A DNA stretch of 64,000 bases from contig NZ_CP074149.1 in the NCBI RefSeq assembly GCF_019968765.1, positions 2,480,001 through 2,544,000 of the forward strand. The letters run 5' to 3'. Position numbers and translations under genes: made by a program. Shown piece by piece: positions 49,437 through 53,282 of the stretch. Below the pieces are notes generated by a model. That model was not told the DNA's origin and ran no database searches. It was given only the letters and a program-made list of their open reading frames with translations. Position 1 is the stretch's first letter, and every line of letters starts with the position of its first letter. This DNA is from Enterobacter sp. JBIWA008 (lineage in GTDB: Bacteria; Pseudomonadota; Gammaproteobacteria; Enterobacterales; Enterobacteriaceae).

Positions 49437-49522
49437 ACCGCCTGACCGCACCCCATCGCACAGGCCAGAAAGATGACAAACAGCAGTGTCAGGGACGGAT
49501 CTTCATAAAAAGAGTGAGTGAC

Positions 49523-51220
49523 ATGGACAACAAACTGAAAAAACATCGTTCCTTATACATCCCATACGCCGGACCGGTTTTACTCGAATTCCCCCTGCTC
49601 AACAAAGGCAGCGCCTTCAGCATGGAAGAGCGCAGCAGCTTTAACCTGCTGGGTTTACTGCCCGAAGTGGTTGAAACCATTGAAGAACAGGCGGAGCGCG
49701 CGTGGATCCAGTATCAGGGTTTCAAAACCGAAATCGACAAGCACATCTACCTGCGCAACATTCAGGACACCAATGAAACCCTCTTCTATCGCCTGGTGCA
49801 AAACCATCTCGAAGAGATGATGCCGGTGATATACACCCCGACGGTGGGTGCGGCCTGCGAGCGTTTCTCAGAGATCTACCGTCGTTCACGCGGGGTATTC
49901 ATCTCTTATCAGAACCGTCACAACATGGACGATATTCTGCAGAACGTGCCGAACCACAATATCAAAGTGATTGTGGTGACCGACGGCGAACGTATTCTCG
50001 GCCTCGGCGACAAGGGCATTGGCGGGATGGGGATCCCAATCGGTAAACTCTCACTCTATACTGCCTGCGGCGGCATCAGTCCGGCGTATACTCTGCCGGT
50101 AGTGCTGGACGTCGGCACCAACAACCAGCAGTTGCTCAACGATCCGCTCTATATGGGCTGGCGCCATCCGCGTATTACCGACGACGAGTACTATCAGTTT
50201 GTCGACGACTTCATCCAGGCCGTTAAGCACCGCTGGCCGGACGTTCTGCTGCAGTTTGAAGACTTCGCGCAGAAAAACGCGATGCCGCTGCTGAACCGCT
50301 ATCGCGATGAGATCTGCTCATTTAATGACGACATCCAGGGCACCGCAGCCGTGACCGTGGGTACGCTTATCGCCGCCAGCCGCGCGGCCGGCAGCCAGCT
50401 GAGCTACCAGAAAATCGTCTTCCTGGGCGCAGGCTCTGCGGGCTGTGGTATCGCCGAACAAATTATCGCCCAGACGCAGCGCGAAGGCTTAAGTGAAGAG
50501 CTTGCCCGCTCCCGCGTCTTTATGGTGGACCGTTTCGGCCTGCTGACCGACGCTATGCCGAACCTGCTGCCGTTCCAGAACAAGCTGGTGCAGAAGCGCG
50601 ATAACCTGAAAAACTGGGATACCGACAACGAAGTCCTTTCCCTGCTGGACGTGGTGCGCAACGTGAAGCCGGATATTCTGATCGGCGTTTCCGGGCAAAC
50701 CGGTCTCTTCACCGAAGAGATTATTCGCGAGATGCACAAGCACTGCGAGCGCCCTATCGTGATGCCGCTTTCCAACCCGACCTCCCGCGTGGAAGCGACG
50801 CCACAGGACATCATCGCCTGGACCGAAGGTAACGCGCTGGTTGCCACCGGCAGTCCGTTCGACCCGGTGGTGTGGAAGGATAAAACCTATCCGATTGCCC
50901 AGTGCAACAACTCCTATATCTTCCCGGGCATTGGTTTGGGCGTTATCGCCTCCGGCGCGTCCCGCATTACCGATGAAATGCTGATGTCGGCGAGCGAAAC
51001 TCTCGCGGGCTACTCGCCGCTGGTCAACAACGGTGAAGGACTGGTGCTGCCGGAGCTGAAAGACATTCACAAGGTGTCGCGCGCTATCGCGTTCGCGGTA
51101 GGAAAAATGGCACAGCAGCAGGGCGTGGCGGTGAAAACCTCTGCCGACGCGCTGCAGCAGGCCATCGACGACAACTTCTGGAAGCCTGAATACCGCAGCT
51201 ATCGCCGTACCTCGATTTAA
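49523..51220 (+). CDS. maeA: NAD-dependent malic enzyme MaeA
   Basis: A 565-residue malate dehydrogenase (oxaloacetate-decarboxylating, NAD) that converts malate to pyruvate. It is nearly collinear with E. coli MaeA ([40 protein letters not shown]). The catalytic Tyr is in VIYTPTVG, the Lys in [15 protein letters not shown], metal carboxylates in [10 protein letters not shown] and FNDDIQGTA, and the NAD motif is [16 protein letters not shown] 49523 gives the same length as the E. coli enzyme; an in-frame GTG at 49514 is less likely. Confidence 0.96.
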
Positions 51221-51233
51221 TTCTGCGCTGCGA

Positions 51234-51264
51234 CCTAACCCTCTCCCTGTGGGAGAGGGTTAGG
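51234..51264. repeat. Long perfect hairpin of a dispersed intergenic type
   Basis: CCTAACCCTCTCCC pairs perfectly with GGGAGAGGGTTAGG around TGT, 14 bases after maeA. Flanking GACCT and AGGTC extend the pairing loosely. Hairpins of this CCCTCTCCC/GGGAGAGGG kind recur between genes of enterobacteria. It has no T-run and may serve as the maeA mRNA end. Confidence 0.7.
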
Positions 51265-51298
51265 GTGAGGTCATCAGACCGCACCATCGAATACCCAC

Positions 51299-51327
51299 TA
51301 GCCAAACCCCTTTTCCCCCGCTACACT
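51299..51327 (+). promoter_or_regulatory. Possible promoter of the ABC-F leader transcript
   Basis: TAGCCA (51299–51304) and TACACT (51322–51327) are each four of six to the sigma-70 consensus with exactly 17 bases between. Transcription would start near 51334, giving a 36-base untranslated lead before the leader ORF. Confidence 0.4.
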
Positions 51328-51369
51328 CCTTTCACCCATTTACCTACTGAATATATAAGGAGGCCAATT

Positions 51370-51453
51370 ATGCTGTACTGTGAAATTTTCAATGTTTCAC
51401 ATACATTTGGTGATCGCACCAGCTCAAGCGTTATCGGTATCGTGCTGCGATAA
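51370..51453 (+). CDS. 27-codon regulatory leader peptide upstream of the ABC-F gene
   Basis: ATG 51370 is preceded by AAGGAGG (51357–51363) at a six-base distance, the best ribosome site of the neighbourhood. The peptide is MLYCEIFNVSHTFGDRTSSS plus VIGIVLR. It matches no protein family that I know, has no membrane segment and ends at TAA 51451–51453. Codons 18–23 form the 5' arm, and the last sense codon and the stop the beginning of the 3' arm, of a strong hairpin, so ribosome position on this ORF decides the fold of the RNA. The strong start signal, tiny size and overlap with the structure mark it as a leader peptide; what stalls the ribosome is unknown. Confidence 0.75.
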   Translation: MLYCEIFNVSHTFGDRTSSSVIGIVLR

Positions 51454-51565
51454 CTTCTGCTTGAGCGAAGACACCAACCCCCTGAAATCCCTTCTCTCGG
51501 GCTTACTGAGTTATCGTCAGCGATGTTTGACGAGGCATAAACATGCCTGTAACTCTTGGGTAAGC
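51422..51565 (+). promoter_or_regulatory. Translation attenuator of the ABC-F gene: two competing RNA structures
   Basis: Structure H1: GCTCAAGC (51422–51429) with GCTTGAGC (51459–51466) and GTTATCG (51430–51436) with CGATAAC (51448–51454), 15 pairs with a four-base bulge. Structure P1: GCTTAC and GAGTTA (51501–51513) with TAACTC (51550–51555) and GTAAGC (51560–51565), enclosing TCGTCA/TGACGA (51514–51519, 51528–51533) and GGCAT/ATGCC (51534–51538, 51543–51547). P1 buries the GGGTAAG before the ABC-F start. Alternative: CGATAACT (51448–51455) with AGTTATCG (51509–51516), eight perfect pairs, which excludes both H1 and P1. A ribosome held on codons about 12–20 of the leader would block H1 and so open P1. 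There is no T-run, so control is translational. Confidence 0.72.
51543..51563 (+). CDS. Six-codon second mini-ORF just before the ABC-F start
   Basis: ATG CCT GTA ACT CTT GGG TAA (MPVTLG) with CGAGG seven bases upstream. Its ribosome site lies in the helices enclosed by P1, and its coding part is the 3' arm of P1, so translating it would keep P1 open. Its stop ends six bases before the ABC-F ATG, a distance that allows re-initiation. Two-leader layouts are known from ermA. It may be fortuitous. Confidence 0.4.
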   Translation: MPVTLG

Positions 51566-51569
51566 AACA

Positions 51570-53282
51570 ATGAGCACTTTACTCACTGCACAATCTTTAC
51601 GCGTTGATACGGCGTTTGGCACGCTCTTCGACTCACTCTCCTTTACGCTGAAAAAAGGCGACCGCATTGGCCTGCTGGGCGACAACGGCTGCGGAAAAAG
51701 TACGCTGCTGAAGGTGCTGGACGGCACTGACTCCCCCGCCGCCGGAACGGTCGCGCTGGCCGGGCACTGCCTGATGGCGCGCGTTGAGCAACATCTCCCG
51801 GACGCCATTTTCCCGATGACCATGCTGGATGCCGTGCTCGCACAGCTGCCTTTAGCCGAGCGCGACAGCCTGAGGTGGAAAGCCGAAACGCTGCTGGCAA
51901 GCATGGGCTTCACGCCGCAGGATATGGCGCTGCGCGCGGCCACGCTGAGCGGCGGGCAGCACACCCGCCTGCTGCTGGCGCGGGCGCTGATTCACGAGCC
52001 AGACCTGCTCCTGCTCGATGAGCCCAGCAACCACCTCGATTTGCCGACCATGCTCTGGCTGGAACACTTTCTGCAGAACTGGTCAGGCAGCTTCGTGCTG
52101 GTCTCGCATGACCGACAGCTGCTGGATGCCGTCACTAACGGCAGCTGGATCCTGCGCGATAAAACGCTGCACTACTTCGCCCTTTCCTGCACGGCCGCCC
52201 GCAAGGCGCTTGAAGCAAAGGATGAAAGCGACGCGCAGCGCCATAAGGCGGAGCAAAAGGAGATCGACCGCGTGACCGCCAGCGCGAAGCGGCTGGCGAC
52301 CTGGGGCAAGGTTTACGACAACGAAGATCTGGCCCGCAAAGCCAAACAGATGGAAAAACAGGTCGAACGGCTGAAGGAGAGCCAGACGGCGCTCACGGCA
52401 GGCAGCCAGTGGACGCTAACCCTGCGCGGCGACGCGCTGCGGGCCGACCGTTTGCTGGAAATGGAAAACCTCGACGTGCCTCCTGCGCCTGGCCTGCCGG
52501 CCTTGTTCAGTATCGACGTAGCGCGGCTAAAAAGCGGCGATCGCGTGGCTATTGTCGGTCGTAACGGCTGCGGCAAATCGTCGCTGATGAGGCTTATCTG
52601 GCAACAGTTTGCCGATATGCCCGCAGACAGCGGGTTGAAAATCCATCCGCGCGTCTCGCCGGGCTATTATGACCAGACGCTTCATCAGCTTGCGGACAAC
52701 GCCACGCTGCTCGACGCGCTGGAGCCTTTCGCACCGGATCCGCAAAACCGCAAAATGGCACTGATTAGCGCGGGTTTCCCGTGGTCACGACACGGGCAAA
52801 CGGTCAGCACGCTCAGCGGTGGCGAACGCTCGCGCCTGCTGTTCGTTGGCCTGACGCTTGCCCGCTACAGCCTGCTGATGCTGGATGAACCGACCAACCA
52901 CCTCGACATGGAAGGCAAAGAGGCGCTGGCGCAAACCCTTCAGCAGTTTGAAGGCGGCGTTCTGCTGGTTAGCCATGACCGTCAGTTAATTAGCCAAAGC
53001 TGCAACCGTTTCTGGCTAATTGAAGAGGGGAAGTTGAGCGAGTGGCACGATGCAGAAGCGGTGTTTGAGCGGCTGCGTGAAAGCGCGGGGCTGGTGACAT
53101 CCACCGCGGCAGTCATCGATACTACGGCGGTTCAATCCTCGCCGTATGACGATCTGCTCGAACGGCTGGTCGCGCTGGAAACGCTGCTGGAGGACGATCT
53201 GGCGCGTAAGCCGAAGCATCAAAAGCCGCACCTGCAGGCGCAATGGCGTAAAGAGATTGAGGAGATAGAAGCACTGCTGTAA
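51570..53282 (+). CDS. ABC-F family ATPase, candidate ribosome-protection protein
   Basis: A 570-residue cytosolic protein with two ABC ATPase domains and no membrane part. Domain 1: Walker A LLGDNGCGKST near residue 36, signature LSGGQHTRLLLARAL, Walker B LLLLDEPSNHLDL. Linker of about 80 residues rich in charged helices (AARKALEAKDESDAQRHKAE to ARKAKQMEKQVERLKES), the P-site tRNA interaction motif region. Domain 2: VGRNGCGKSS, LSGGERSRLLFVGLTL, LLMLDEPTNHLDM. A C-terminal coiled extension ends WRKEIEEIEALL. It is distinct in length and linker from EttA, Uup, YheS and YbiT as I know them. E. coli has no gene here between maeA and adhP. The leader attenuator upstream argues for an antibiotic-resistance (ARE) type rather than a housekeeping factor. 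Confidence 0.88.
   Translation: MSTLLTAQSLRVDTAFGTLFDSLSFTLKKGDRIGLLGDNGCGKSTLLKVLDGTDSPAAGTVALAGHCLMARVEQHLPDAIFPMTMLDAVLAQLPLAERDSLRWKAETLLASMGFTPQDMALRAATLSGGQHTRLLLARALIHEPDLLLLDEPSNHLDLPTMLWLEHFLQNWSGSFVLVSHDRQLLDAVTNGSWILRDKTLHYFALSCTAARKALEAKDESDAQRHKAEQKEIDRVTASAKRLATWGKVYDNEDLARKAKQMEKQVERLKESQTALTAGSQWTLTLRGDALRADRLLEMENLDVPPAPGLPALFSIDVARLKSGDRVAIVGRNGCGKSSLMRLIWQQFADMPADSGLKIHPRVSPGYYDQTLHQLADNATLLDALEPFAPDPQNRKMALISAGFPWSRHGQTVSTLSGGERSRLLFVGLTLARYSLLMLDEPTNHLDMEGKEALAQTLQQFEGGVLLVSHDRQLISQSCNRFWLIEEGKLSEWHDAEAVFERLRESAGLVTSTAAVIDTTAVQSSPYDDLLERLVALETLLEDDLARKPKHQKPHLQAQWRKEIEEIEALL

Follow-up and report, generated by a model that had tools for sequence, protein, structure and literature searches.

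A putative leader-peptide translation attenuator in front of a PAF1-like ABC-F gene of Enterobacter

The region between maeA (open reading frame, ORF, at 49514–51220) and adhP (from ∼53472) in the window analyzed here, a stretch of 64,000 nucleotides of Enterobacter sp. JBIWA008 (NZ_CP074149.1, positions 2,480,001–2,544,000), consists of a short leader ORF and a gene for an ABC-F ATPase, both on the + strand; the names maeA and adhP were taken from NCBIfam. In the erm and cat attenuators, a leader ORF with a strong Shine–Dalgarno (SD) sequence overlaps a first hairpin, a second hairpin hides the start site of the regulated gene, and arrest of a ribosome on the leader frees the segment that opens it. 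An original prediction, made from the letters of the window, had placed the same logic in front of the ABC-F gene, with a 27-codon leader preceded by AAGGAGG, a hairpin H1 and a sequestering structure P1. The leader and both structures were recovered where they had been proposed (Table 1), each fold being more stable than its shuffled counterparts. In this study, comparative and folding analyses of this element indicate that it is probably an erm/cat-type attenuator, operated by the ribosome at the level of translation, that would induce an ABC-F protein of the PAF1 type when an elongation inhibitor stalls a ribosome on the leader.

Table 1. Features of the leader region and the ABC-F gene (positions in the window)
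Feature	Position	Strand	Remarks
Possible -10 element TACACT	51322..51327	+	Weak candidate promoter for the leader and the ABC-F gene
Leader SD sequence AAGGAGG	51357..51363	+	Conservation of 97% or more at every position (99 aligned sequences)
Leader ORF	51370..51453	+	ATG at 51370, 27 sense codons MLYCEIFNVSHTFGDRTSSSVIGIVLR, stop TAA at 51451–51453
Hairpin H0 within the leader	51379..51402	+	z -2.94; 2/200 shuffles equally low
Leader codons 14–21	51409..51432	+	With any of these codons in the P site of a stalled ribosome, the antisequestor is the sole predicted fold (masked folding, three sequences)
Hairpin H1	51422..51466	+	5' arm 51422–51436, loop 51437–51447, 3' arm 51448–51454 and 51459–51466
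Switch segment 2, CGATAACT	51448..51455	+	Final leader codon, stop codon and two nucleotides; pairs in H1 or with segment 3
Switch segment 3, AGTTATCG	51509..51516	+	Inside P1; perfect complement of segment 2
Antisequestor (ON) hairpin	51444..51521	+	51444–51456 and 51459–51470 paired with 51491–51502 and 51508–51521
Sequestering structure P1	51501..51565	+	Three-way junction: outer stem, inner stem and two hairpins
GGGTAAG, weak ABC-F ribosome-binding stretch	51558..51564	+	In the P1 3' strand, just 5' of ATG 51570
ABC-F ATPase gene	51570..53282	+	570 amino acids; fits subfamily PAF1

H1 is made up of 15 pairs (8 + 7) with a bulge of four nucleotides (51455–51458), and the outer and inner stems of P1 are formed by 51501–51506/51560–51565 and 51508–51513/51550–51555, respectively. 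The ribosome-binding stretch of the ABC-F gene, classified by column 51559, is GAGTAAG in 71 and GGGTAAG in 28 of 99 aligned sequences. Segments 2 and 3, which had been claimed to form a competing helix of eight base pairs, are perfectly complementary when read directly; however, this pairing is not the whole competitor but the closing part of a longer hairpin, the antisequestor, in which GAGCGAAG (51463–51470) is also paired with CUUCUCUC (51491–51498). Fold energies were tested against 200 dinucleotide shuffles, none of which was as low as H1 (-20.1 kcal/mol, z -3.96), P1 (-26.8 kcal/mol, z -4.93), the antisequestor (-30.0 kcal/mol, z -5.29) or the whole of 51370–51572 (z -5.65) in the window. 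For the same three structures in six sequences of other clades, z ranged from -5.32 to -1.20.

Comparison of relatives indicates that both of these mutually exclusive folds are clearly conserved, although covariation is not formally established pair by pair. When 51441–51522 was folded alone in 150 sequences the same antisequestor hairpin was returned: 51448–51453/51511–51516 was paired in all 150, GCUG (51444–51447) was paired with 51518–51521 in 143–147 and GAGCGAAG was paired with CUUCNCUC (51491–51498) in 102–143. The motifs CGAAG and CUUC lie outside H1 and P1 and are nearly invariant in the 99 aligned sequences because both are paired in the longer antisequestor hairpin; this alignment is mostly of Enterobacteriaceae and omits 23 of the 58 loci of one collection because the search for the start pattern was confined to a single strand there. 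Among 118 sequences, the alternative helix 51448–51454/51510–51516 has standard pairs wherever both positions carry a letter; it has a single break in a set of 149 sequences and an internal mismatch in Proteus/Morganella-type sequences. RNAalifold run without a supplied structure returned this helix alone, and neither H1 nor P1.

The 58 sequences with less than 90% identity among the 150 were aligned for a further comparison, with shuffles for the double changes that leave the relatedness of the sequences in place. In this alignment 95.0% of the cells of the 21 antisequestor pairs can pair, compared with at most 47.6% in slid versions, and double changes are found at eight pairs in 24 cells, against 3.1 and 4.8 in the shuffles (0/500 reach either value). 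The 38 pairs of the H1 + P1 fold are paired in 85.5% of cells (at most 41.8% when slid), with double changes at 15 pairs (10.5 in shuffles, 6/500 reaching the observed value) in 64 cells (26.8 in shuffles, 0/500); the outer and inner helices of H1 are paired in 94.4% and 79.1% of cells, respectively. Furthermore, when strands were swapped between clades, which here and below were delimited by a rule on the endings of the leader peptides, the duplex energy was better with a strand's own partner in 10/12 comparisons for H1, 9/12 for the alternative helix, 11/12 for the P1 strands and 10/12 for the P1a hairpin; the Vibrio-type clade VibA failed for the alternative helix against all three other clades. 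A covariance model of the element (R1, from 33 sequences) matched 67/147 relatives, with a single match in 66 of them.

The leader itself accompanies the gene wherever loci were collected. A leader start and a strong SD sequence at a similar distance were present at 80/80 loci, these being the loci kept from 187 that encode a close ABC-F relative, and a leader with a strong SD sequence was present at 30/30 loci from an order-wide search, at 38/38 further loci from searches in the Vibrio-like and Aeromonas-like families and at 30/30 loci from a family-wide search with a Proteus protein; these four sets overlap in part, and their counts are not additive as independent observations. The same arrangement was found in 4/4 records of Morganella, Proteus, Pantoea and Aeromonas, and the taxa concerned include Enterobacter, Klebsiella, Citrobacter, Serratia, Pantoea, Proteus and Aeromonas. 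The ABC-F protein of family f25 shares 87.5% identity with an Aeromonas caviae protein, and the upstream region of family f21 is 89.2% identical to Vibrio campbellii DNA (both plasmid-database records). The leader is 26–29 codons long among relatives, and its frame is intact in 155/156 sequences, the only broken one being L073. No leader coding sequence is annotated in either of the two gene-annotated records of relatives, the gene table of which is incomplete.

Among 153 unique leaders, with positions aligned by counting from the C-terminus, Ser19 is invariant (codon TCA in 130, TCT in 23), position 13 is always Phe, Leu or Tyr, position 14 is Gly in 137, and the last residue is Arg27 in 152. 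In the Proteus/Morganella-type leaders L221, L222 and L225–L231, Arg27 is retained with the codon CGT. The codon-level conservation by which the original prediction proposed to check the leader was found in four clades. In codons 3–17, which lie outside the switch helices, the in-frame ratio of nonsynonymous to synonymous polymorphism (pN/pS) is 0.58, 0.27, 0.55 and 0.54, compared with 0.90–2.59 in the two shifted frames of the four clades; these ratios indicate that codons 3–17 are under amino-acid selection in four clades and, from this codon-level signal, that the leader is translated. In codons 18–27 the in-frame ratio is 0.79–3.93 and hence no amino-acid selection is visible above the RNA pairing; the peptide and RNA signals are inseparable in this part of the leader.

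The effect of a ribosome on these folds was modeled by masking a 30-nucleotide footprint at each leader codon from codon 2 onwards in the window, in L092 from Klebsiella pneumoniae and in L057 from Citrobacter. In all three sequences the antisequestor has a probability of 0.97–1.00 with codons 14–20 in the peptidyl (P) site and 0.81–0.99 at codon 21, and does not exceed 0.03 from codon 23 onwards. The AUG of the ABC-F gene has a probability of 0.79–0.97 of being unpaired with the ribosome at codons 18–21, and P1 reappears after codon 23 in the window and in L057. Without a ribosome the outer helix of H1 dominates in L092 (0.95) and L057 (0.88), with a sharp change at codon 14. The energy needed to open the start region (-16 to +13) was compared in 150 sequences with a ribosome at codon 20 and without one: it is 6.0 versus 9.1 kcal/mol in 94 Enterobacteriaceae-type sequences, being more than 1 kcal/mol lower in 82/94, and 4.9 versus 9.4 kcal/mol (13/15) and 5.0 versus 7.6 kcal/mol (15/18) in Vibrio-type sequences; overall, it is lowered by more than 1 kcal/mol in 117/150 sequences. 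A switch of the fold by the ribosome is thus well supported within the model, but the magnitude of its effect on expression is not: the predicted opening of the ABC-F start is small and fails in the Aeromonas-like clade.

The proposed mechanism would operate as follows. During normal translation of the leader, H1 would re-form behind the ribosome and P1 would form as the RNA is made, such that the ABC-F start would be poorly used. A ribosome halted with one of codons 14–21 in its P site would cover the 5' arm of H1 and leave the RNA from 51448 onward free; this RNA would then pair with 51491–51521, P1 would be blocked and the ABC-F protein would be translated, after which it would rescue or protect ribosomes. 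A ribosome that had reached codon 23 or beyond would cover segment 2, and the antisequestor would be lost. The signal would most likely be an inhibitor that blocks elongation from the peptidyl-transferase centre or the tunnel.

Several results weigh against this reading. The attenuator is a purely computational model, and in the window the antisequestor is already favored without a ribosome (0.87) and at codons 7–13 (0.78–0.96), the flip at codon 14 being seen only in L092 and L057. Since the antisequestor of the window is favored at equilibrium, its OFF state must be kinetic, set by the order of folding; masked folding bore out the erm/cat switch logic as a shift of fold in two of the three sequences, but with the window already ON in the absence of a ribosome. 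Masking of codons 2–3 raises the antisequestor to 0.84–0.87 in L057 (0.53–0.74 in the window, 0.04–0.10 in L092), P1 is weak in L092 throughout (0.36 without a ribosome), and the SD stretch of the ABC-F gene stays largely base-paired when a ribosome is masked. On average, the energy gained for opening the start is ∼3 kcal/mol; this gain is nil for L092 and for L110 from Serratia, and is absent from the Aeromonas-like sequences as a group (11.8 versus 11.7 kcal/mol, more than 1 kcal/mol lower in only 7/23). Some single-sequence folds of other clades are no better than their shuffles, the weakest being L160 (H1 z -1.64, P1 z -1.20), L151 (P1 z -1.65) and L225 (antisequestor z -1.38). The covariation check gave compensatory changes in H1, P1 and the alternative helix, but no single pair reached E < 0.05 in a tree-aware test (149/150 sequences), in which the best helix pairs rank 12th, 27th, 30th and 34th (counted from 0) of ∼12,000. 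In addition, the resistance role of the ABC-F protein is itself a prediction, and no cut-off for an antibiotic-resistance (ARE) family is reached among the 25 best families listed.

The score closest to such a cut-off came from the NCBIfam ribosomal-protection model NF000355 (323.3 bits, cut-off 380); the ARE models for Sal, Msr, Vga, Lsa, OptrA and others in the same list of 25 fell even further below theirs. The cut-offs of the housekeeping models were likewise missed: Uup (237/900 bits), EttA (216.8/806.75), PRK15064 (226.5/762) and PRK10636 (223.5/917), the last two of which we take to be the YbiT and YheS models. The nearest solved sequence is that of YheS. A structure model built from 33 sequences (predicted local distance difference test, pLDDT, 88.0; predicted template-modelling score, pTM, 0.75) has linker helices at 207–248 and 252–270 with a tight interdomain loop; an extended interdomain linker is described for ARE1–5, with none in OptrA and a slight one in PoxtA. 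The model matches human ABCF1, VmlR2, PoxtA, YheS and EttA with similar scores, and a fold search was rejected as a classifier of ARE and housekeeping proteins since its scores fail to separate the two.

By its taxonomic range, rather than by a tree, the protein fits subfamily PAF1, which is listed among predicted novel ARE ABC-Fs (Murina et al., 2019; PMC6723617): both occur in Vibrio, Enterobacter, Klebsiella, Serratia and Citrobacter and not in Escherichia, where the comparison for E. coli is a search of 20,395 records with the leader DNA only, none of which matched. The leader DNA is present in 59/61 genomes of the genus and the ABC-F protein in 110/392 genomes of the family, so that the 'enterobacterial core locus' of the original prediction holds for the genus but becomes patchy in the family; the leader selection, the folds and the masked switch give that interpretation partial support, which does not extend to core status beyond the genus. 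Of the conditions named for its refutation, a lack of codon-level conservation and a lack of compensatory changes were examined, and neither applied. In three other families the protein was found in 37/197, 4/12 and 23/75 genomes, and in a class-level search of 369 genomes the protein of the window was the sole orthologue at E 1e-110. In Pantoea, Rahnella and Ewingella it also occurs on large plasmids. The regulation of PAF1 is not described in the main text of PMC6723617, in which 'upstream', 'uORF' and 'leader' have no matches; a search by the name PAF1 turned up no later paper, and no published leader or regulation for PAF1 was recognized in the literature searched, which excluded subscription papers and preprints.

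These class data bear on a rival that we regard as rather unlikely, in which the attenuator is real but its signal is a general elongation problem, such as amino-acid shortage, a slow codon or nascent-chain arrest, and the ABC-F protein is a stress translation factor. The housekeeping YheS as the nearest solved sequence, the inability of fold comparison to separate ARE from housekeeping proteins, the absence of any listed ARE cut-off that is met and the near-universal presence of the leader DNA in the genus, as expected of a stable chromosomal gene, all speak for it. However, the leader has no run of a single amino acid, unlike amino-acid attenuators, and patchy presence outside the genus resembles that of accessory resistance genes, an argument of Murina et al. 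(PMC6723617). In another rival, arrest would occur not at codons 14–21 but at the leader stop, after a hydrophobic MsrDL-like ending I-V/A-L-R-stop, or at the start codon. Published MsrDL arrest is at a UAA stop codon, and among the 153 unique leaders Arg27 is last in 152 and is preceded by Leu26 in all; however, Arg27 and the stop lie within the switch segment, and RNA pairing therefore explains much of this conservation. Moreover, the stop is TAG in 24/153, some relatives outside this set (from the Proteus search and named records) have Pro, Val or Met in place of Leu26, and the antisequestor is at 0.00 in all three masked sequences when the P site holds the final codon. For the start codon, the response of L057 to the masking of codons 2–3 is in favor, the mask having begun at codon 2, whereas the same mask has no effect in L092, and arrest at either end is improbable.

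Instead of blocking the initiation of translation, the element might attenuate transcription, via an intrinsic terminator or via Rho. There are precedents: MsrD uses a terminator, VmlR has transcription attenuation among other layers (PMC9226507), and RNA can become accessible to Rho when its translation is blocked, a mechanism proposed for topAI (PMC12121999). Transcription attenuation appears quite improbable here, as no terminator-like site was found in 51200–51700 and P1 is followed by a start codon, not by a U-run, although Rho may still act secondarily. The strongest conservation is at the RNA level, which would suit a structured and conserved 5' region that determines mRNA stability or keeps translation constantly low, the small ORF in it being incidental; against in-frame selection on codons 3–17 in four clades, the conserved SD sequence and two mutually exclusive conserved folds, this explanation is very improbable.

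If the element is an attenuator operated by an elongation inhibitor, the hints at hand make a phenicol-type drug the best single guess for the inducer, to be taken as a lead. The guess is based on the invariant Ser19. Codon 20 belongs to the effective range, and a ribosome with this codon in its P site would carry Ser19 as the penultimate residue. Chloramphenicol and linezolid are reported to arrest elongation with a penultimate Ala and less so with Ser or Thr (PMC8987054), and stalling by phenicols and oxazolidinones is described in the same terms in PMC12121999. The Ser19 codon lies in H1, however, and its conservation is therefore not cleanly a peptide signal, which is a further point against the reading. 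Lincosamides and pleuromutilins, the classes named first in the original prediction, and streptogramin A are less likely inducers because a ribosome at the start codon would leave H1 uncovered, although the response of L057 to the masking of codons 2–3 keeps some likelihood for them; start-codon stalling is proposed to serve the 3–4-codon upstream ORFs (uORFs) of Gram-positive ABC-F genes (PMC10201436, PMC12121999).

The likeness to erm/cat, for which a description of ermC serves as reference, lies in a leader that overlaps a hairpin and a second hairpin at the start site. In contrast to erm/cat, the target here is a Gram-negative ABC-F gene, the ON state takes the form of a long antisequestor hairpin, and the leader peptide looks unrelated by eye to the erm and cat leaders. 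The Gram-positive ARE ABC-F genes vmlR, cplR, lsaA, vga(A) and msrD also have a uORF in front and a switch based on ribosome stalling. As far as described, however, these uORFs are 3–6 codons long (MIN, MR[I/M], MAGN, MYLIFM) and their arrest is proposed at the start or shown at the stop, whereas here the leader has 26–29 codons and the predicted arrest range is interior. A Gram-negative parallel is the toiL uORF of E. coli topAI, at which antibiotic stalling frees a hidden start site (PMC12121999); toiL pairs along its length with the target binding site, whereas here a relay of H1, the antisequestor and P1 is predicted, with another gene and another peptide.

With regard to the surroundings of the element, no consensus sigma-70 promoter was found in a scan of 51200–51700, and the DNA matches of many relatives start at or near 51322–51327. 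A search of the same interval with Rfam (4227 families) left the element unmatched; the only match, to XIST_intron, is at chance level and falls outside it, at a palindromic CCCTCTCCCTGTGGGAGAGGG repeat (51239–51259) between maeA and the leader. This repeat presumably belongs with the dispersed enterobacterial repeats that it resembles. In the first half of the leader, H0 (GUGAAA/UUUCAC) may contribute to the conservation of codons 4–5 and 10–11. Partial second matches in the genomes G094 and G201 were rejected as second leaders because they are decayed duplicates of the start of the leader in the vicinity of other genes: in G094 (L210, 1959–2049) a decayed promoter/leader-start copy with a 136-amino-acid ORF lies between maeA and the ABC-F leader, and in G201 (L209, 1736–1796 and 2094–5722) such a copy lies ∼4 kb upstream and precedes two proteins that look radical-SAM-like by their cysteine motifs, together with a short His/Ser-rich ORF. 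A weak extra match in G256 (E 0.003, G256:C1:306874–306952) is away from the ABC-F locus. On the Morganella morganii plasmid p48659_1 (L221, 50,644 bases), a PAF1-like ABC-F gene with a matching leader lies near an acetyltransferase gene, ada and alkB.

A wider and more tentative reading, which we consider possible rather than probable, is that a single inherited sensor of elongation drugs, plausibly of phenicols via Ser19, switches on PAF1 across Enterobacterales and relatives in Vibrio and Aeromonas, through a deeply conserved attenuator with an interior arrest site; PAF1 would then be a ribosome-protection factor, inducible and unrecognized, in major Gram-negative pathogens. The element also offers a natural leader of unusual use for its length, as several lineages have conserved it and the constraints of RNA pairing and of the nascent peptide could be separated in it. 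If the reading is true, silence until induction would explain how ordinary expression or minimum-inhibitory-concentration screens could miss PAF1, and the conservation of a leader that senses drugs would argue strongly, if circumstantially, for a role of PAF1 in resistance.
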